From: an uncultured Desulfatitalea sp.
Lineage (GTDB): Bacteria; Desulfobacterota; Desulfobacteria; Desulfobacterales; Desulfosarcinaceae
Assembly (NCBI GenBank): GCA_937868765.1
Contig: CALMNL010000010.1
Span: 124,001 to 188,000 of the forward strand
Direction: 5' to 3'
DNA: 64,000 nt
Position numbers and translations under genes: made by a program
In this document: positions 17,266 to 27,436 of the stretch, one piece after another
Numbering within the stretch: the stretch's first letter is position 1
How the letters are laid out: each line of letters opens with the position of its first letter
Notes under the pieces: model-generated
Seen by the model: only the letters and a program-made list of their open reading frames with translations
What the model was told of the DNA's origin: nothing
Database searches by the model: none

Positions 17266-18018
17266 TCAGCAGGTTGCATTCATCTTTCGCATACGAGCAA
17301 TTTCATCCACCAGTTCCAGGAGCCGTTCCATCTTCAGTGGCTTGGTCATGAAGGTGTAAGCGCTTTCGTTCAGGGCCTGCCCGATGGCCTCCCGCATTTC
17401 ATCGGCATATCCGGTGATCAGGATGGTGGTCAGATCGGGTTGAACCGTCTTGATGCGGCGATAGACCTCCAGGCCGGCAACTTCGGGAAGCTTCAGATCA
17501 AGCAGCAGCAGATCGTAAGATCGCTTTTGGGCCATATCGATGGCTGCCTGCCCGTCGCGGGCCACAGCCACGCAATAACCGGCAGCGGTCAGCACCTCCT
17601 TCAAGTTGTCACACAGGGCGTCGTCGTCGTCGGCCACGAGGATGTAACCATTGCGGCCTTCGCTGCGGGCAGCGGTGATGGTTCCCATCAGGGTCTGCAT
17701 ATCCAAGGGTTTTTTAAGAACGGCCCACACGCCTTTATCGCAAGCGGTTTGGATCAGGTCGGTGAGGGCGTATGCCGTCATCAGAATCACGCGCAAGCGC
17801 GGGTTGCCGGCCTTCATTTTTAGGAAACACTCCACCCCGTTCATGCCGGGCATCTTGATATCCATCAGAACCAGGGCGAAGTCGTTATTGGCCACCAGCG
17901 CCATTGCCTCTTCGCCGCTGTGGGCGGTCTGAACCTGGTAGCCTTCCTCTTCCAGCACATCCTTGATGTTGTCGATAAACGCCACATTGTCGTCGACCAA
18001 CAGGATTTTTTCTTCCAT
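17266..18018 (-). CDS. Double-receiver response regulator without output domain
   Basis: A 250-residue protein made of two receiver domains: residues 1-118 with Asp53 (LMDIKMPGMNG) and residues 124-250 with Asp174 (LLDLKLPEVAG). Each keeps the acidic pair near its start (LLVDDN, VADDDD), the Thr (MTAYAL, ITGYAD) and the Lys (KKP, KPL). No DNA-binding or enzymatic domain is present, so it probably relays phosphate between the flanking kinases. ATG 18018 follows aaagggg; upstream in-frame starts lack support. Confidence 0.9.
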   Translation of the reverse strand: MEEKILLVDDNVAFIDNIKDVLEEEGYQVQTAHSGEEAMALVANNDFALVLMDIKMPGMNGVECFLKMKAGNPRLRVILMTAYALTDLIQTACDKGVWAVLKKPLDMQTLMGTITAARSEGRNGYILVADDDDALCDNLKEVLTAAGYCVAVARDGQAAIDMAQKRSYDLLLLDLKLPEVAGLEVYRRIKTVQPDLTTILITGYADEMREAIGQALNESAYTFMTKPLKMERLLELVDEIARMRKMNATC

Positions 18019-18099
18019 GTAGCACCCCTTTGATTGCTCCGATGCAGATCCTTTCAACCCAGTGGACGGTCCCAAGCGGTGCCGGTTTGGAATGCTTGA

Positions 18100-21000
18100 T
18101 CACCCATTGCCGTTCCCCGCCCGGTGGGCAGCTGGCAGGACAATGGTGACGCGTGTGCCTTCACCGGATATACTCTCCAAGAATACGTCGCCACCATGTT
18201 CGTTGACAACCTTTTTTACAATGGCCAGGCCGATGCCGGTGCCCCTGGCCCGGGTGGTAAACAGCGGCTCGAACGCCCGCTGGAGGGTATCCGGTGTCAT
18301 GCCGGTGCCATTGTCTGCGATTTCGATGATGGCTTTTCCTTCGCTGAAATAGCTTTTTACCAAAATATTCGGATGATAATCAGAAGGCCCCCCACTGTCG
18401 ACGGACATTTTGGCCTTCACGGCCTGAATGGCATTGTCCAGTACATTGATGGCTACCCGGCGCATTTTTTCGGGATCGTGGGGCACGAGGGGAAGGGGGC
18501 GCTGCAGTTCCTGGGCGATGGCCAGGCCGTGGGACTCCTGGAGTTGCTCGATCACCTGGATCAGCCAGGGGGTGAGATCCGCCTTGACCATGGAGGCCGT
18601 TCGGCCGCGGGTGTACTCCAGCAGATCGGCCACGATGGCATCGCAAAGCGCCACCTGCTCCTCGATGCGTTTGAAATGTTTGGCCACTTTTTCATCCGGG
18701 TTCGCAATTTTGCGCTGCAGGAAGAAGTTGGATGAACGAATGACGCCTAGGGGGTTGCGCAGTTCGTGGCTCACCGTGGCGGTCAACTGGCCCAGCACCG
18801 CCAGCTTTTCGCGCTTGACCAATTCGCTCTGGGCCGCCTCCAGCGCCTGGGTGCGCGCCTGGACCATCTCCTCCAGGTGGTGCCGGTACTGCTCGAGCTC
18901 CCGCTCGATCCGCTTGCGTTCGGTGATGTCGACGGTCATGGCCAGCAGGCAATCGTCGCCATGGAAGTTGATCGGAGTGACGGAAAAGAGACTCTCCAAA
19001 ATGCGGCCGTCTTTGGTTCGGAATTGGAGCTCCAAACTCTCCACATTTCCATCGCGGCGGTAAATTTCCAGCATGCGCTCCCGGGCGGCGGGGTCGACGA
19101 ATATATTCAGATCGTAAGGGGTATGGCCGAGGGTCTCTTTCCGGCTGTAACCGGTGCGCCGGCAGAACGACTCGTTGACTTGCATATAGCGGCCGTCGGA
19201 AAGACGCGTAATTATGATGGAATAGGGGGCCGATTCGAGGATGCGGCGATAGTTCGCCTCGCTTTCGCTGAGGGCGCGCTGATAATCTTTGAGAACGGTG
19301 ACATCCACGGTGGAGGAGAGAAAACACTCCTCGCCCCGGTACTGCAAAGGGGTCACCGAGAGCAGGCACTCCCGTATGGCGCCGTCCTTGGCCCGGAAAA
19401 GAAGCTCTATCCCCTGCAACTGACCATCCGGTCCTCTGGTCGAAAGGACCTTTTGGCGATCGAAAGGGTCGGCATACAGGTTCAGTTCCATGGTGGTGAG
19501 GCCGATGGCTTCATTCCGGCGGTAGCCGGAATTGCGGCAGAAGGCATCGTTGACTTCGACGATGCGGTCGTCCGAGCGGCGCGTCACCATCATGGAATTG
19601 GGGGCGACTTCAATCACCTTGCGGTAGCTCTCTTCGCTCTCTTTGAGCGCCCGCTGGGCCTGCTTCAGTTCGTTGATGTCCACGGTGATGGAGAGGAGGC
19701 ACGTTTCGCCTCGGTAGCGCATTGGTCTGACCGACAACAGGCTCTCCAGGATGCGGCCGTCCTTGGCCCGGAAGCAGATCTCCATGCCATCCACCTGGCC
19801 CAGGGTTTTGAGGGTTTCAAACATGCGTTCGCGGTCGGCCGGGTTTTCATACAAGTTCAATTCCATGGCGGTGCGGCCGATGGTCTCCGCTTCACTGTAC
19901 CCGGTGCGGCGGCAAAACGCCGGGTTGACGCGCACGTACGCGGCGTCTGATAAGCGCGTGACCACGATGGTATAAGGGGCCGTGTCGAGGATCGAGCGGT
20001 AGGCTTCTTCGCTCTCGGCCAGGGCTTTTTGAATGGCTTTCAAAGTGTCGATGTTGGTGGTGACCGTCAGCATGCACGGCTCGCCCTTGAAATGGATGGA
20101 TCGGGAAGAGATCAGGCTGGTGGTGATGGCTCCGTCCTTTCGGCGGAAACGGATCTCCATACCGTCCACCGATCCCCGGCGGCGATAGGAATCCAAAAAT
20201 CGCTTCCTGTCGGCGGGGTCTTCATACAAGTAGAGCTCTCCGGCGGTGCGGCCGATGGCCTCCTCCCGACCGTAGCCGGTGAGACGGCAGAAGGCCTCGT
20301 TGACCAGCACATACTTGGTATCCGATATCCGCTGGATCGTGATGGAGTAAGGGGCGTTGTCCAGGATGGAGCGGTAGTCTTTCTCGCTTTCAACCATGGC
20401 ATCTTGGGCTGCCTTCAGATCCTCAATGCCGGTTGATACCGTAAGCAGGCAAGGCTCTCCCTCGAAGGAGATGGCGCGTGCAGAAACCAGGGATTGCGTG
20501 ATACGCCCGCCTTTGCCTTGAAAAGAGATTTCCATACCATCCACCCGGCCGGTCCTGCGAAAGGTCTCCAGAAACTGATGGCGATCGTTCGGATCTTTGA
20601 ATATGTTCAGTTCCACTGTGGTGTGGCCGATCACCTCCTCTCTGGCGTAGCCGGTGCGCTGGCAATAGCCTTCGTTGACATGCATGTAACGGGAGTCCGA
20701 AATACGGGTGATGGTGATGGAATAGGGGGCTGTATCGAGGATGGTGCGGTAGCTTTCCTCTTTCTCGGCGAGCGCTCTTTGAATTGCTTTGAGCTCATCG
20801 ATCTCCTTGGCGACGACCAGCAGGCAGGGTTCGCCGTTGTGCTCGATCACCCGGCAAGACCATAGGTTATGGGAAATGGAACCGTCCTTATAACGAACCG
20901 GGACCTCCAAGGGGTCCACCAGACCATCCTTTTTTATCGCCTCGAGCAGTTTAATGCGATCCGCCGGATCGGCATAAATTCCCAATTCCGATGAAGTATG

Positions 21001-22374
21001 ACCGATGGTTTCCTGTGGCGTAAACCCAGTACGCTGGTAAAATTCGCTGTTGGCTTCGATATATTTTCCGTCGCTGAGTCGGGTAAGACAGATGGCGTCG
21101 GGGGCCGCCTCCAGGATCGTCCGGTAACGCTGCTCGCTCGCCTTCAAAGCCTTTTGGGTCTCTTTGAGGGCATTGATCACTGTAGCGATGACCAGCACGC
21201 ACTCCTCGCCTTTAAACTGGATGATGCGGGCCGATACCAGGTCCGTGAGCCGCCTACCATCTTTGGCTTGAAACTTGATTTCTATGCTGTCCACCCGGCC
21301 GTTCCGGCGCAATGCCCCCACCAGGCGCTCGCGATCCAAGGGATCGGAATAAATGTTGAGCTCCAGGACGGTGCGGCCGATCACCTCGTCCCGATGGAAG
21401 CCTGTCTGCTGGCAAAAGGCTTCGTTGACGTCGAAGTATTTGCCGTCGGCCAGCCGTGAAATGGTTATGGCGTCCGGGGCCAGCGCCATCACCCGGCGAT
21501 AGCTTTCCTCGCTTTCGCGCAATGCATTTTGGACCTCTTTGAGGGGAGTGATGTTGGTGGCGACGAAAAGAAAACAATCCTTGCCCTTGAACTGAATGCG
21601 GCGGCCGGAAACCAAATCCTCCAGGATTTTGCCATCCTTGGTCCGAAAGCGAAGATCCAGGCCGTCGATGCTGCCCTGTCGAAGGGCAAGTCCAAGACGC
21701 CGCTGGTCTTGCGCGGTGGCGAACAGGTTCAACTCGGCCGGAGTCCGGCCGATCACTTCCGCTAGAGCGAAGCCGGTTTGGCGCGTGAAGGCCTTGTTGA
21801 CGTCTATATAGCGGTCGGTTGCTGCCTCATTGATGGTAATGGCGTCGGGGCACAGGTCCATGACGCCGCGATAGCTCGCCTCGCTTTCCCGCAGTGCGCT
21901 TTCAAGGCGCAATGCCTCGGTGCGGTCCCGGGATATGCCGAAAAATCCCGACGGTTCGCCCGACGCGTGCCGCAAGAGCGACGCCGACATTTCATGTCTG
22001 AGGCGGGTACCATTTTTATGGACTGATTCGTACTCGATGATTTTGGCGGCGGTGCCTGTACTGCGTATTTTCTCCAGTTCCGCATCTATTTTTGCGGCGC
22101 TTTCGGGGGACAGGCAATTTCGAAAATTCATCCATAGCAGTTCGCCTGCGTCATATCCCATGCTCAGACACATGGCCGGATTGACAAACGTGAAGTTGCC
22201 TTCCAAGTCGAGTTCGTAATACCCCTCTTCCATGTTGGCGATGATATAGCGATGTTTCTCTTCATCGGGGGAGCGCTCTGGGGACTTGTGCCGGGATTTG
22301 CCTTCGTCTTTCTGGCTGGGCGGTACCGTGCGTCTGGCAACGCCTTTCCTGCGGGTGGGCTTCTGTGAGGTCAT
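18100..22374 (-). CDS. Histidine kinase with nine PAS domains
   Basis: A 1424-residue predicted cytoplasmic kinase. A first, divergent PAS covers about residues 38-155. Residues 161-1160 are eight PAS units in tandem, each 125 residues, beginning (L)xESExxYRxI and containing VNxAFCRRTGY-like and ADPxDRER-like segments. A coiled coil leads to HisKA, with the phospho-His at 1203 (TVSHELRNPLG), then HATPase motifs NVLDNAIQAV, ADNGTGM and GTGIGLAIV. ATG 22374 follows aaaggaacctg. No cofactor-binding residue is evident in the PAS units. It is first in a three-gene operon with output-less partners. Confidence 0.93.
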   Translation of the reverse strand: MTSQKPTRRKGVARRTVPPSQKDEGKSRHKSPERSPDEEKHRYIIANMEEGYYELDLEGNFTFVNPAMCLSMGYDAGELLWMNFRNCLSPESAAKIDAELEKIRSTGTAAKIIEYESVHKNGTRLRHEMSASLLRHASGEPSGFFGISRDRTEALRLESALRESEASYRGVMDLCPDAITINEAATDRYIDVNKAFTRQTGFALAEVIGRTPAELNLFATAQDQRRLGLALRQGSIDGLDLRFRTKDGKILEDLVSGRRIQFKGKDCFLFVATNITPLKEVQNALRESEESYRRVMALAPDAITISRLADGKYFDVNEAFCQQTGFHRDEVIGRTVLELNIYSDPLDRERLVGALRRNGRVDSIEIKFQAKDGRRLTDLVSARIIQFKGEECVLVIATVINALKETQKALKASEQRYRTILEAAPDAICLTRLSDGKYIEANSEFYQRTGFTPQETIGHTSSELGIYADPADRIKLLEAIKKDGLVDPLEVPVRYKDGSISHNLWSCRVIEHNGEPCLLVVAKEIDELKAIQRALAEKEESYRTILDTAPYSITITRISDSRYMHVNEGYCQRTGYAREEVIGHTTVELNIFKDPNDRHQFLETFRRTGRVDGMEISFQGKGGRITQSLVSARAISFEGEPCLLTVSTGIEDLKAAQDAMVESEKDYRSILDNAPYSITIQRISDTKYVLVNEAFCRLTGYGREEAIGRTAGELYLYEDPADRKRFLDSYRRRGSVDGMEIRFRRKDGAITTSLISSRSIHFKGEPCMLTVTTNIDTLKAIQKALAESEEAYRSILDTAPYTIVVTRLSDAAYVRVNPAFCRRTGYSEAETIGRTAMELNLYENPADRERMFETLKTLGQVDGMEICFRAKDGRILESLLSVRPMRYRGETCLLSITVDINELKQAQRALKESEESYRKVIEVAPNSMMVTRRSDDRIVEVNDAFCRNSGYRRNEAIGLTTMELNLYADPFDRQKVLSTRGPDGQLQGIELLFRAKDGAIRECLLSVTPLQYRGEECFLSSTVDVTVLKDYQRALSESEANYRRILESAPYSIIITRLSDGRYMQVNESFCRRTGYSRKETLGHTPYDLNIFVDPAARERMLEIYRRDGNVESLELQFRTKDGRILESLFSVTPINFHGDDCLLAMTVDITERKRIERELEQYRHHLEEMVQARTQALEAAQSELVKREKLAVLGQLTATVSHELRNPLGVIRSSNFFLQRKIANPDEKVAKHFKRIEEQVALCDAIVADLLEYTRGRTASMVKADLTPWLIQVIEQLQESHGLAIAQELQRPLPLVPHDPEKMRRVAINVLDNAIQAVKAKMSVDSGGPSDYHPNILVKSYFSEGKAIIEIADNGTGMTPDTLQRAFEPLFTTRARGTGIGLAIVKKVVNEHGGDVFLESISGEGTRVTIVLPAAHRAGNGNG
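18895..21894 (-). repeat. Eight tandem 375-bp coding repeats (PAS units)
   Basis: Within the large kinase gene, a unit of 375 bp repeats eight times in frame with essentially constant length, judged from the recurring protein motif spacing of 125 residues. Copies differ in sequence but keep the same core, indicating repeated duplication followed by divergence. Copies five to seven look most alike (AESEExYRSILDxAPYxI). Confidence 0.88.
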
Positions 22375-22849
22375 CAGGTTCCTTTGCGTTTGCGCCATCA
22401 ATCCCGAACGCAAGCTTCGTGGTATGGATTTACCCGGGGGCAATGAGCTTGCGACCCATAACGGCTCTTCCAGTGTAGCTTGCTGGAAATTTTACAAAAG
22501 ATTATGGCAAAAGCGGGGGGGCTGTCAACGCGTGAATTCGGCTGAATAGTCATCTGATTTTAGGGGATTGCAGGCATGCTAGGCCTGGTCGCCCCGCTGG
22601 GGACCGGATGCGTCGGAGGGCATGCAGGCTTATGGGAGGCGCGATAAAGATCTGCGCCAAAGAGGTCATGGGCACTTTGCAACCGGCATCGGAGTGCCCA
22701 TGGCCTTCGAAGATTATAAGTCATCGCCCGATCGATAAATCCTTTAAGCCTCGTATCAGGTGGAAACAGGGGTCGTCCGCGCTGTTGGAATAGGATCTTG
22801 AACCCGATAGAAGGAGAGTATGTGGAAAACCGGAGGGTTGAGATGCGGA
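22375..22849 (+). other. Gene-free stretch between sensor operon and first CFI-tailed gene
   Basis: About 475 bases with no supported ORF. It holds the promoter-like TTGACA-N16-CATAAT on the minus strand and a short imperfect GC hairpin near 22588-22608. Nothing else is recognised. Confidence 0.6.
22501..22528 (-). promoter_or_regulatory. Sigma-70-type promoter for the sensor operon
   Basis: On the minus strand TTGACA, a 16-base spacer and CATAAT (five of six matches) lie about 127 bases upstream of the kinase ATG, in the only sizeable gap before the gene. The spacer contains a run of seven C. This is a sequence match only. Confidence 0.5.
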
Positions 22850-23260
22850 TCAGTTGCTGAACAGGGTGTCGATAAAACAGCCGCCACCACCGCCACCGGA
22901 GCCGCCGCCACTCGTGCCGCCATTGTCCAAACCGTTGTCGCTGCTGTAATCGGAGGGAAGATATACTTCGTTTGAATCTCCGCTTTCGTTGCCCTCACTG
23001 TCAAATGCTCTTACGACGAAATAGTAGGACTCATATTCATCGAATCCCTGCAGGGTGACCTGCGTATCGGTGCCTTCCCACTCCGGGTAGCCGTAGTTGT
23101 ATGCCTCGCCGGATTCGCGCGCATAAATGCGGTACCCGGCCAAAGTTGAGTCCGTGTTGGGATCCCAGGCCAGGGTTACGTCCATGGCCATGACAAATGC
23201 GGGAAAAATCTGAAGTAGCAGTAAAAGCAGGATAAGGTACGGCGTGAATTTACTTTTCAA
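22850..23260 (-). CDS. Secreted fibronectin-III protein with Gly-rich CFI tail (copy A)
   Basis: About 136 residues. A signal peptide (LKSKFTPYLILLLLLL to FVMA) precedes one fibronectin type III domain (DVTLAWDPNTDSTLAGYRIYARE to YYFVVRAFDSEGNESGDSNEVY), then a Gly/Ser linker and the end GGGCFIDTLFSN. The start is inferred as TTG 23260 because aaaggagg lies ten bases upstream; ATT one codon earlier is also possible, and longer in-frame starts lack a ribosome site. It is a paralogue of the gene 370 bases upstream. The tail resembles the Cys-Phe-Ile C-terminal boxes known in deltaproteobacterial surface proteins; its processing is not established here. Confidence 0.8.
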   Translation of the reverse strand: MKSKFTPYLILLLLLLQIFPAFVMAMDVTLAWDPNTDSTLAGYRIYARESGEAYNYGYPEWEGTDTQVTLQGFDEYESYYFVVRAFDSEGNESGDSNEVYLPSDYSSDNGLDNGGTSGGGSGGGGGGCFIDTLFSN

Positions 23261-23629
23261 AATATGTGAGCCTCCTTTCAGGAATACTACTGGTTGAGCT
23301 CGTTGTGATGGGGTTGCGCCACCGGGTGGTGCTTGCGGTGCTTCATGCAAGGGGGGTGCCAGAAGGGGAGGGGGGATGGGCGAGTACCGATCTCGTTGTA
23401 ATTTTTTGTTTTTACAACGTATCCAGATTAAGGGTGCGGCTTATCATTGCGCGGCATGTAACCGTCAGATTACCGTCGCGTGCTTCGAGAAGGGGCATGG
23501 TTACGTTTTTTGTACCTGGAGGCGGGATCGCCGCCAGGCCTCTGTCATGGCTGTGCGGCGGAATATAAAGGTTAAGAAATATTCACTGCATCCACGACCG
23601 GGGGGATGCGAATCATACACAATGCTGTC
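23261..23629 (+). other. Gene-free spacer between the two CFI-tailed genes
   Basis: About 369 bases. Overlapping ORFs in several frames lack ribosome sites and family resemblance. The aaaggagg of copy A lies at its left edge. No terminator or promoter could be named with confidence. Confidence 0.5.
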
Positions 23630-24043
23630 TCAGTCGCCAAATATGCTTTCGATAAAACAACCGCCGCCACCTGCGGAGCCGCCGCCACCGCCGTTGAGGC
23701 TGTCGTGGGTTCCCCCGCCAGGCTCTTCTGCCCCGCTCGGGCTCCAATAAACCTCGTTGGAGTCGCCGCTCTCATTGCCGTTCGAGTCCACCGCCCGAAC
23801 CACGAAATAGTAAGACTCGTATTCGTCGAAACCGGTCACGGTGCACTGGGTCATATCGCCTTCCCATTCGGGATGCGCGTAATCATATCTCTCATCATGC
23901 TCTCTGGCATACAATCGGTAACCGGCAGTTTTACTGTCGGAGCTAGGATCCCAGGCCAGGGTCACATCTGCGGCCCATACGGCCAAGGGGTGAGAAATCA
24001 CAATCCAGAGGACAAGGAACATCAATCTGATATGGGTGCGCAT
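23630..24043 (-). CDS. Secreted fibronectin-III protein with Gly-rich CFI tail (copy B)
   Basis: A 137-residue paralogue of copy A. MRTHIRLMFLVLWIVISHPLAVWA is a signal peptide; the single fibronectin III domain starts ADVTLAWDPSSDSKTAGYRLY and contains the shared core GFDEYESYYFVVRA; a Gly-rich linker leads to GGGGCFIESIFGD. ATG 24043 is chosen because aggaag lies just upstream and the signal peptide starts there. The two copies keep the same domain and tail but differ in the linker, as expected for an old duplication. Confidence 0.85.
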   Translation of the reverse strand: MRTHIRLMFLVLWIVISHPLAVWAADVTLAWDPSSDSKTAGYRLYAREHDERYDYAHPEWEGDMTQCTVTGFDEYESYYFVVRAVDSNGNESGDSNEVYWSPSGAEEPGGGTHDSLNGGGGGSAGGGGCFIESIFGD

Positions 24044-25817: not shown

Positions 25818-25933
25818 AAAAAATGACCGAGTACGGGACATGTTGTTGACATGTCTAGTATGGCTCGGCATACTCGCTCTTATCAAAATCGCGCCAAAAG
25901 CGTTCGATGTCTAAATTTGAGGGAGGGATACGC

Positions 25934-27436
25934 ATGCGGACCAAGCAAGATTACATCAACGGCCTTAAAAAAATGAAGCGCAATGTCTACTTCAACGGCG
26001 AGCGGATCGACCGCACGGACGAGCTGCAGATGGATTGTATCAACAACATCGGCACCACCTATGACGAAGCGGCGAAGCCGGAAAACCAGGATCTGCTGAC
26101 GGCCATCTCGCACCTGACCGGCCAGCGCATCAACCGCTTTACCCACATTCACCAGAACAAAGAGGATTTGCACAAGAAACAGGACATGACCCGCATGCTC
26201 TGCCAGAAGGTGGGGGGATGCATTCAGCGCTGTATGGGGGTAGACGCCGTCAATGCCATCTACAACGTTTCCCACGAGGCCGACAAAGGGAACAAGGGCG
26301 AAACCCAGTATCACGAGAACTTCAAGAAATGGCTGATTCGCTTTCAGACCGAAGATCTCATCGGCTGCTGCGCGCAGACCGACGTCAAGGGCGATCGCCT
26401 GCTGCGGCCGGCAGACCAGCCCAACCCGGGCGCCTATGTGCATATCAAGGAACGGCTCAAGGACGGCATTGTGGTGGAGGGATGCAAATTGCACATCTCC
26501 GAGGCCTCGGTGGCCGACGAGGTGCTGGTGGTGCCCACCCGTGCCCTGCGGCCCGAAGACAAGAATTATGCCGTGGCCTTTGCCGTTCCGGGGGACTGGG
26601 ATGGACTCAAGCAGGTGACCACCATCCACCGGTTCCGTCAGCGTGAGCATTTCAAACGCGGCTGGATGCCGGCCTCCACCGACTCCTACATGATCTTCGA
26701 AAACTGCTTCGTTCCCTGGGAGCGGGTCTTCCTGGCCGGCGAGTATCAGCATGGCGGGATCAATGCGCTGCTCTTCGCGCTGTTCCATCGCCACTCCTAC
26801 TCGGGCTGCAAACCGGCCATCGGCGATGTCATAATGGGTGCGGCCGCCCTGGCCGCCGAAGTCAACAACGTGCACAAGGCGTCCCATGTCCGCGAAAAAC
26901 TGTCCGAATTGATCATGGTCACCGAGTTGGGGTATGCCGCTGGTTATACCGCTTCGGATCTGGGCGGGCCAAGGGTCTATATGCCCGGCAAGGGGTTGGT
27001 GCCTTATGGGCCCGGTTCCTTCATCCCCCACTCGATTTACTGCAATGTGGGCCGCTGCCTGTCGGGCGAGGCGGTTTACCGCGAGGCGGAGATCCTCTGC
27101 GATATCGCCGGCGGCGTCGTGGCAACCTTCCCCCATGAGCGGGACTTCTTGAATCCAGAGACGCGCGATCTGCTCTTGAAATATACCAAGCGCAACCCGG
27201 ATATGCCCGTTGAAGATCAGGCCCAGTTCTGGCGTTATCTCGGCGACGTGTTATGCTCGGCCAAGGGCGGGATCCACAGCGTGGGCGGCTATCACGGGGG
27301 TGGGTCGCCCATCATGGAGCAGATTGCCATTACTTCCCAATACGACATCGAATCCCGCAAAAAGCTGGTACGCTACATCGCCGGGATGAGCGGTGGAGAT
27401 CGTGAAGCCCTGGCGCCCAAAGCCAAGAAGGAGTAA
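25934..27436 (+). CDS. 4-hydroxybutyryl-CoA dehydratase / vinylacetyl-CoA isomerase family enzyme
   Basis: A 500-residue flavin and [4Fe-4S] enzyme of the HpaB/AbfD fold. The cluster ligands of clostridial 4-hydroxybutyryl-CoA dehydratase (Cys99, Cys103, His292, Cys299) have counterparts with the same spacing: Cys96 and Cys100 in GGCIQRC, His285 and Cys292 in HRHSYSGC. This supports the dehydratase rather than a plain hydroxylase. ATG 25934 follows gagggaggg; an upstream ATG at 25907 has no ribosome site. No CoA transferase or ligase lies nearby, so the pathway (4-hydroxybutyrate or aminobutyrate use, or a related acyl-CoA) is open. A terminator follows. Confidence 0.88.
   Translation: MRTKQDYINGLKKMKRNVYFNGERIDRTDELQMDCINNIGTTYDEAAKPENQDLLTAISHLTGQRINRFTHIHQNKEDLHKKQDMTRMLCQKVGGCIQRCMGVDAVNAIYNVSHEADKGNKGETQYHENFKKWLIRFQTEDLIGCCAQTDVKGDRLLRPADQPNPGAYVHIKERLKDGIVVEGCKLHISEASVADEVLVVPTRALRPEDKNYAVAFAVPGDWDGLKQVTTIHRFRQREHFKRGWMPASTDSYMIFENCFVPWERVFLAGEYQHGGINALLFALFHRHSYSGCKPAIGDVIMGAAALAAEVNNVHKASHVREKLSELIMVTELGYAAGYTASDLGGPRVYMPGKGLVPYGPGSFIPHSIYCNVGRCLSGEAVYREAEILCDIAGGVVATFPHERDFLNPETRDLLLKYTKRNPDMPVEDQAQFWRYLGDVLCSAKGGIHSVGGYHGGGSPIMEQIAITSQYDIESRKKLVRYIAGMSGGDREALAPKAKKE

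Follow-up and report, generated by a model that had tools for sequence, protein, structure and literature searches.

The window analysed here is a stretch of 64,000 nt from an uncultured Desulfatitalea sp., and at positions 22850-24043 it contains two adjacent paralogous genes for small secreted proteins, each with a single fibronectin III (fn3) domain and a short C-terminal tail starting with Cys-Phe-Ile (CFI). Their features are as follows, with a PF00041 cut-off of 25 bits:

24043 to 23630 (23630..24043), minus strand: gene 2, paralogue of gene 1; ATG start, 137 aa, stop included
23972..24043, minus strand: gene 2 predicted signal peptide, hydrophobic N-terminal segment
23753..23977, minus strand: gene 2 fn3 domain, Pfam PF00041, 34.9 bits
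23633..23659, minus strand: gene 2 short tail CFIESIFGD, with four Gly (23660-23671) directly before it
23260 to 22850 (22850..23260), minus strand: gene 1, secreted fn3 mini-protein; TTG start, 136 aa, stop included
23186..23260, minus strand: gene 1 predicted signal peptide, hydrophobic N-terminal segment
22967..23185, minus strand: gene 1 fn3 domain, Pfam PF00041, 35.1 bits
22853..22879, minus strand: gene 1 short tail CFIDTLFSN, with six Gly (22880-22897) directly before it

The upstream gene (gene 2) ends in GGGGCFIESIFGD and the downstream gene (gene 1) in GGGGGGCFIDTLFSN. A preliminary description of the locus had recognized adjacent paralogues with a signal peptide, a single fn3 domain, a Gly-rich linker and a CFI end, and the open reading frames, the PF00041 matches and hydropathy confirmed this arrangement. 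Its length of about 137 residues holds for gene 2, but gene 1 has 136 residues, because an AGGAGG ribosome-binding site puts its start at TTG 23260. The tail is also short, as described, and lacks the continuation of the long CFI-box form: both proteins have the Cys in ninth place from the end and no Arg among the eight residues beyond it, and the model of the long form, NF041770, matched neither the mini-proteins (maximum E 10) nor the tails alone. The best named relatives of gene 1 come from one Deltaproteobacteria MAG and two Desulfatitalea MAGs (69-71% identity over the best segment). Four CFI-tail mini-proteins of like build (138-142 codons from stop to stop) occur in relatives of the same genus (G010, G007 and G005), and in G010 two of them lie in tandem (L081). 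An obvious guess is that these fn3 proteins serve at the surface as small modules for adhesion or scaffolding.

Searching all six frames of the genome gave 17 occurrences of the GCFI codons, as compared with 13 for the reversed control pattern. Five of the 17 sites directly follow a Gly-rich stretch in an ORF longer than 180 aa, no more than 10 residues ahead of its stop, and gene 1 and gene 2 account for two of these five; GCFI ends in this genome exceed chance. The genome-wide search found nine secreted proteins with the short CFI tail at the C-terminus, gene 1 and gene 2 among them, indicating that the tail is not private to the pair. Their bodies are mostly unrelated to each other, comprising, besides the mini-proteins, a peptidase C10 with PKD, an LVIVD propeller, a GDSL lipase, a subtilase with choice-of-anchor J (44.0 bits, cut-off 30), an fn3 protein with choice-of-anchor U (54.2 bits, cut-off 32), an SdrD_B protein that also gave a sub-threshold CAP match, and a propeller with a weak fn3 match. 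'Choice-of-anchor' is the NCBIfam name for domains found with varied C-terminal anchors. All nine have a signal-peptide-like N-terminus, the SdrD_B protein only if an internal start is taken. A profile built from the nine tails recovered all of them and, weakly, one further protein of the genome (E 1.4).

Comparison of the tails gives good support to a C-terminal sorting signal of secreted proteins with roughly the form G(n)-C-F-I-x-[ST]-[LIM]-[LFAG]-x(0-3)-COOH. We harvested 60 tails from the loci with a pattern that fixes C and F, four of which look like chance frames (L060, 151 aa; L114; L141, 135 aa; L142, 151 aa). Among these 60, 51 end 4-7 residues after CFI and 56 have L, M, I or V at the third residue after it; eight residues follow the Cys in gene 1 and gene 2, and 6-9 in most tails. 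When one tail protein was searched without its tail in 40 related genomes, all 14 matches (12 genomes) ended in W-C-F-[I/C] plus 5-11 residues, with CFI proper in 13. In the alignment of these homologues the tail Cys is the sole invariant Cys column, and the linker before it varies. Because this family has no Gly run before the motif, the run is not essential; the conserved features are C-F-I and the short end.

The tag is already catalogued in NCBIfam under the label 'putative sorting motif' (NF041763, sort_motif_CFI, CFI-box putative sorting motif), a 14-residue annotation model of a Gly-rich CFI motif like that of the short tail. Against its cut-off of 15.9 bits, gene 1 scored 17.9 in the genome scan, 19.7 with the tail alone and 14.5 as the whole protein; gene 2 scored 12.6 with the tail alone, and its whole protein had no match among those listed. 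Other clear CFI tails likewise score below the cut-off. A literature search for the CFI-box or NF041763 motif found no paper and no processing enzyme tied to the motif, and broader searching returned papers on MYXO-, GlyGly- and PEP-CTERM and on archaeosortases, among unrelated ones.

The long form, NF041770 (CFI_box_CTERM), is like the short tail in having a Gly-rich stretch followed by C-F-I-x-[TS] and in occurring on related fn3/choice-of-anchor-U proteins. However, it is a 69-residue domain that, in the copies read, continues mostly with membrane-type helices and basic residues, whereas the short tail stops 4-7 residues after CFI in most cases. Related bodies carry different tails: protein L111 combines a signal peptide and an fn3 domain that shares 43% identity with gene 1 across 120 columns with a long CFI-box-CTERM (84.4 bits, cut-off 40), and L108 joins a related fn3 plus choice-of-anchor U to a long CFI-box-CTERM (92.4 bits). 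The source genome itself has two fn3 and choice-of-anchor-U proteins, one with the short tail and one with CFV, a membrane helix and Arg residues; the latter, a tenth protein beside the nine (73.6 bits for choice-of-anchor U), has GCFV followed by a hydrophobic stretch and a terminal GRRRD. Since three C-terminal types occur on related bodies, the short tail probably does a job like that of the others, which argues that it holds the protein to the cell envelope as the long and membrane-helix forms would.

Two irregular ends were seen among these proteins. An fn3/choice-of-anchor-U protein at L114:3-1610 (plus strand) keeps GGGCFV and hydrophobic helices, without the LRxFRD segment that the long CFI box has. 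In L063 (G031), a minus-strand ORF has two CFI motifs 52 residues apart with a run of N between them, and the last motif is tripartite (GGGCFINTAA...TM...RFRKN), which looks like a duplication of the signal.

Scanning the 40 relatives with NF041770 yielded eight matches over the cut-off, in seven genomes, and nine under it. All nine sub-threshold matches fall in a single gene family of about 510 aa, hereafter the partner; the control genomes of B. subtilis and L. lactis also gave NF041770 matches under the cut-off. For the four partners scanned against NCBIfam, NF041770 was the best match every time (19.3, 18.8, 15.8 and 16.5 bits, cut-off 40). The partner gene encodes a HEAT-repeat membrane protein and forms a conserved pair with a CPBP/Rce1-like protease gene, found independently with PF02517, which it directly precedes in most genomes. 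The source-genome pair is on another contig (C4:54.2-56.4 kb), where a possible TTG start of the protease overlaps the partner stop by four bases; no CPBP gene was seen beside a tail gene among the matches listed, whose positions we compared.

CPBP adjoins the partner at 25 of 29 loci of the relatives and at 18 of 29 loci of a phylum-wide set. Loci without an adjacent CPBP were, in the relatives, G035, G026 and two short contig pieces (G024, G016) and, in the phylum set, G116, nine loci of family f55 and one match to the HEAT part only (G090). In f55, the partner homologue had no CPBP in the flank examined at any of nine loci (L217-L225), and another enzyme may take its place; these genomes carry tails such as CFIQTAGF despite the missing adjacent CPBP. 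In G026 the partner is present and a PF02517 match is absent. The source-genome protease belongs to the CPBP/Rce1-like family (PF02517, 65.7 bits, cut-off 22.4), and an alignment of 20 copies shows the motifs EE..FRG, H and PI.IH.LGN conserved at 80% or above. It scores under the curated cut-offs for MrtJ (37.1, cut-off 75), MrtS (30.4, cut-off 130) and the Mrt core (12.5, cut-off 100), as does the best of three CPBP copies scanned (46.0, 44.6 and 21.2, respectively). Its nearest curated families, all below cut-off, are the CPBP/ABC permease model NF041647 (42.0 bits, cut-off 435), MrtJ and MrtS.

To our 40 relatives first: the partner was present in 28 of the 31 genomes with any tail match, as compared with two of the nine without (Fisher p 2e-4). 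Those with a tail and no partner were G005 (three tail matches in a fragmented assembly), G032 (long form only) and G038 (one long, one short); those with the partner and no tail match were G035, which has the long form, and G036. Among the seven relatives with the long form over cut-off, the partner occurs in three (G006, G026, G035) and not in four (G029, G030, G032, G038). Four of the seven (G026, G029, G030, G032) have no PF02517 match, so the long form is apparently independent of the CPBP protease.

The phylum set consisted of 297 genomes drawn evenly, three of which (G000, G034, G027) had been seen before. Tail matches were obtained in 36 genomes, sorted by eye, not blind and with the partner result already known, into 21 with short or tripartite tails, nine with the long form only and six excluded as chance matches or unconfirmed (G244, G058, G199, G052, G150, G198). 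The partner was counted in 31 genomes, after leaving out 10 of the 41 matching genomes because only the HEAT part matched (G061, G070, G074, G080, G090, G118, G205, G234, G238, G273). It was present in 18 of the 21 short/tripartite genomes, none of the nine long-only genomes and 13 of the 267 others. Short/tripartite genomes thus differ from the rest of the set (18/21 vs 13/276) with a Fisher p of 8e-18 that does not model the tree, and with p 6e-16 after removal of the three genomes seen earlier (16/19 vs 13/275). Counting by genus, which only lessens the effect of kinship, gave 13/15 vs 9/184 (p 6e-13), and counting by family gave 8/9 vs 4/100 (p 1e-8), on the assumption of 109 families, the highest family number seen. 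With the HEAT-only genomes included, the partner was in 18/21 vs 23/276, and in one of the nine long-only genomes. The three short/tripartite genomes in which no partner was detected were G190 (eight tail matches), G214 and G117; in G162, a genus mate of G190, it was found only in pieces at contig ends. Conversely, 13 genomes have the partner and no detected tail, and the tail profiles are insensitive, a 45-row profile finding five of the nine source-genome tails at E 0.02.

Two other markers were tried in the relatives and rejected. The CPBP domain alone is widespread and weakly associated with the tail (29/31 tail genomes vs 5/9 others, p 0.016), and rhombosortase was over its cut-off in 8/31 tail genomes vs 1/9 others (p 0.65), showing no association. 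Of the co-occurring sorting enzyme that had been anticipated for the locus, what emerged as a candidate is the partner, usually beside a CPBP gene, which tracks the tail; a rhombosortase does not. The suggestion that the tail is a sorting tag is well supported by comparison, considering the unrelated secreted bodies, the conservation in 14 of 14 homologues, the exchange of tails and the co-occurrence with partner and CPBP.

An AlphaFold2 model of the partner (mean pLDDT 87.0, pTM 0.85) shows seven long membrane-type helices, counted by eye, as against six peaks in the hydropathy profile. It also has a small alpha/beta region (about 230-308) and, at the C-terminus, a HEAT domain; a fold search with this model effectively tested the HEAT part (residues 374-510) and listed no match for the membrane part. 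The densest cluster of invariant residues, R193 D194 L197 G203 Y210 Y211 (six of 18), follows the fifth helix and, in the model, forms helices 186-197 and 201-221, a pair that our reading of the topology would place on the periplasmic side. In hhalign, the partner aligned with the part behind CFI of seven long CFI-box tails (probability 77%, pairwise E 2e-5), scoring 41.5, whereas 200 column shuffles reached no more than 23.0 and the reversed profile 18.4; this partner segment is therefore a homologue of the stretch that follows CFI in the long CFI-box-CTERM. For a long tail, the model (pLDDT 86.9, pTM 0.63) has a short helix 2-8 on FIATAAY, helices 14-27 and 31-53, and then two membrane-type helices. 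Helices 14-27 and 31-53 seem to be the same pair as in the partner, the models having been compared without superposition; the long-form pair reads LRxFRDxYLL...G...YYRYSPP and its partner counterpart RDxLLLxNxxG...YYxYTL. From the two models, the short tail would resemble the first helix alone and the partner the helix pair.

Known sorting systems offer partial parallels. Synerg-CTERM/MrtS, JDVT-CTERM/MrtJ and the MYXO-CTERM/MrtX of Myxococcus all carry an invariant Cys in the C-terminal signal of their secreted proteins and involve a CPBP glutamic intramembrane protease, in parallel with the short tail and its candidate protease. Unlike the Mrt enzymes, the present CPBP falls below all Mrt cut-offs and its gene adjoins that of a HEAT membrane protein. 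According to PMC11980579, MYXO-CTERM bears a membrane helix and an Arg cluster, its cleavage needs the conserved Cys, and MrtX is responsible for the C-terminal cleavage and surface anchoring of TraA, lipidation being a proposal there too. Neither mini-protein has a membrane helix and Arg-rich end after the Cys. The CaaX box, with a Cys and then hydrophobic residues near the very C-terminus and an Rce1-like protease (see PMC11980579), is like the short tail in lacking a membrane helix; in contrast to it, the short tail is extracytoplasmic, and in both mini-proteins eight rather than three residues follow the Cys, which is ninth and not fourth from the end. GlyGly-CTERM, the rhombosortase signal, shares the Gly-rich stretch, but it needs a membrane helix and a basic end after this motif, which both mini-proteins lack, and rhombosortase does not track the short tail.

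With moderate confidence, we propose that the short tail is a sorting signal read by the partner and CPBP, the Cys being modified, the end removed and the protein kept at the surface. From the comparisons above we infer recognition, cleavage, Cys modification and surface anchoring in the following way. Tail proteins would leave the cytoplasm by Sec export, and the amphipathic FIxSLL segment after the Cys would be recognized at the outer face of the inner membrane, where its helix may dock on the helix pair of the partner, a seven-helix membrane protein with a HEAT domain that could act as receptor or as transferase. The Cys would then be modified, most likely lipidated by analogy with CaaX boxes and MYXO-CTERM, and the CPBP/Rce1-like glutamic intramembrane protease would remove the residues behind it. 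Retention on the cell surface would follow from these two changes. A more tentative extension, to which we give somewhat less than an even chance, is that there is one CFI system with two wirings: the long form would have the helix pair in cis, and the short form would use it in trans, completing a three-helix unit before the Cys is modified and the end clipped. By the same slightly doubtful reading, the short tail would be a periplasmic, membrane-helix-free, CaaX-like box in bacteria.

The tail might instead be uncleaved and self-sufficient, its amphipathic peptide and Cys binding the membrane or, through a disulphide, another protein with no dedicated enzyme, and partner and protease merely sharing ancestry or lifestyle with tail-bearing genomes. 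It is indeed too short for a membrane helix, the end at 4-7 residues after CFI (51 of 60 tails) could be a finished C-terminus, and 38 of 48 tail proteins counted, a few of which look like chance frames, contain one or more additional Cys after the signal region. However, beyond its signal peptide gene 1 contains only one Cys, the partner co-occurs strongly by genus outside the discovery genomes (13/15 vs 9/184) and separates short/tripartite (18/21) from long tails (0/9), and the homology between partner and long CFI-box-CTERM is left without a reason; we consider this explanation unlikely.

Quite unlikely, in our judgement, is the processing of the tail by a general enzyme, either an Lgt-type transferase or rhombosortase, with partner and CPBP doing something else. 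For MYXO-CTERM, PMC11980579 gives Lgt as the leading lipidation candidate. The source genome has one rhombosortase above the curated cut-off (94.9 bits, cut-off 84), but its lack of association in the relatives leaves 23 tail genomes without one, and short tails offer a rhomboid no membrane helix. Lgt, to our knowledge universal, fails to explain tails confined to few genomes. That partner and CPBP degrade or release CFI-tail proteins (quality control, shedding) rather than sort them is very improbable: CPBP family functions are mixed and anchoring is only inferred here, but the exchange with tails that have their own membrane helices, on related bodies, points to anchoring.

What is new, as far as the literature searched shows, is the gene pair, the partner's co-occurrence with short tails and the in-cis/in-trans relation between the two forms of tail. 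Under the proposal that partner and CPBP read the short tail, the pair is a concrete candidate for enzyme and partner of a tag so far labelled 'putative', in anaerobes with little-studied surface proteins, and it provides a system with few candidate genes for what modifies the Cys in CPBP-processed signals. A tag without a membrane helix would broaden the range of bacterial C-terminal sorting signals, and the in-cis/in-trans homology, if true, would account for short and long CFI tails side by side.

Several neighbours of the mini-protein genes in the window have features of their own. The next gene downstream, on the same strand, encodes a histidine kinase of 1447 aa (18100-22443, minus strand) with about eight tandem, very similar PAS repeats followed by HisKA and HATPase, and after it lies a protein with two domains that by eye are receiver-like (17266-18075). 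On the other side, 25907-27436 (plus strand) encodes an HpaB family protein (PF11794, PF03241), perhaps a relative of 4-hydroxyphenylacetate hydroxylase or of 4-hydroxybutyryl-CoA dehydratase.
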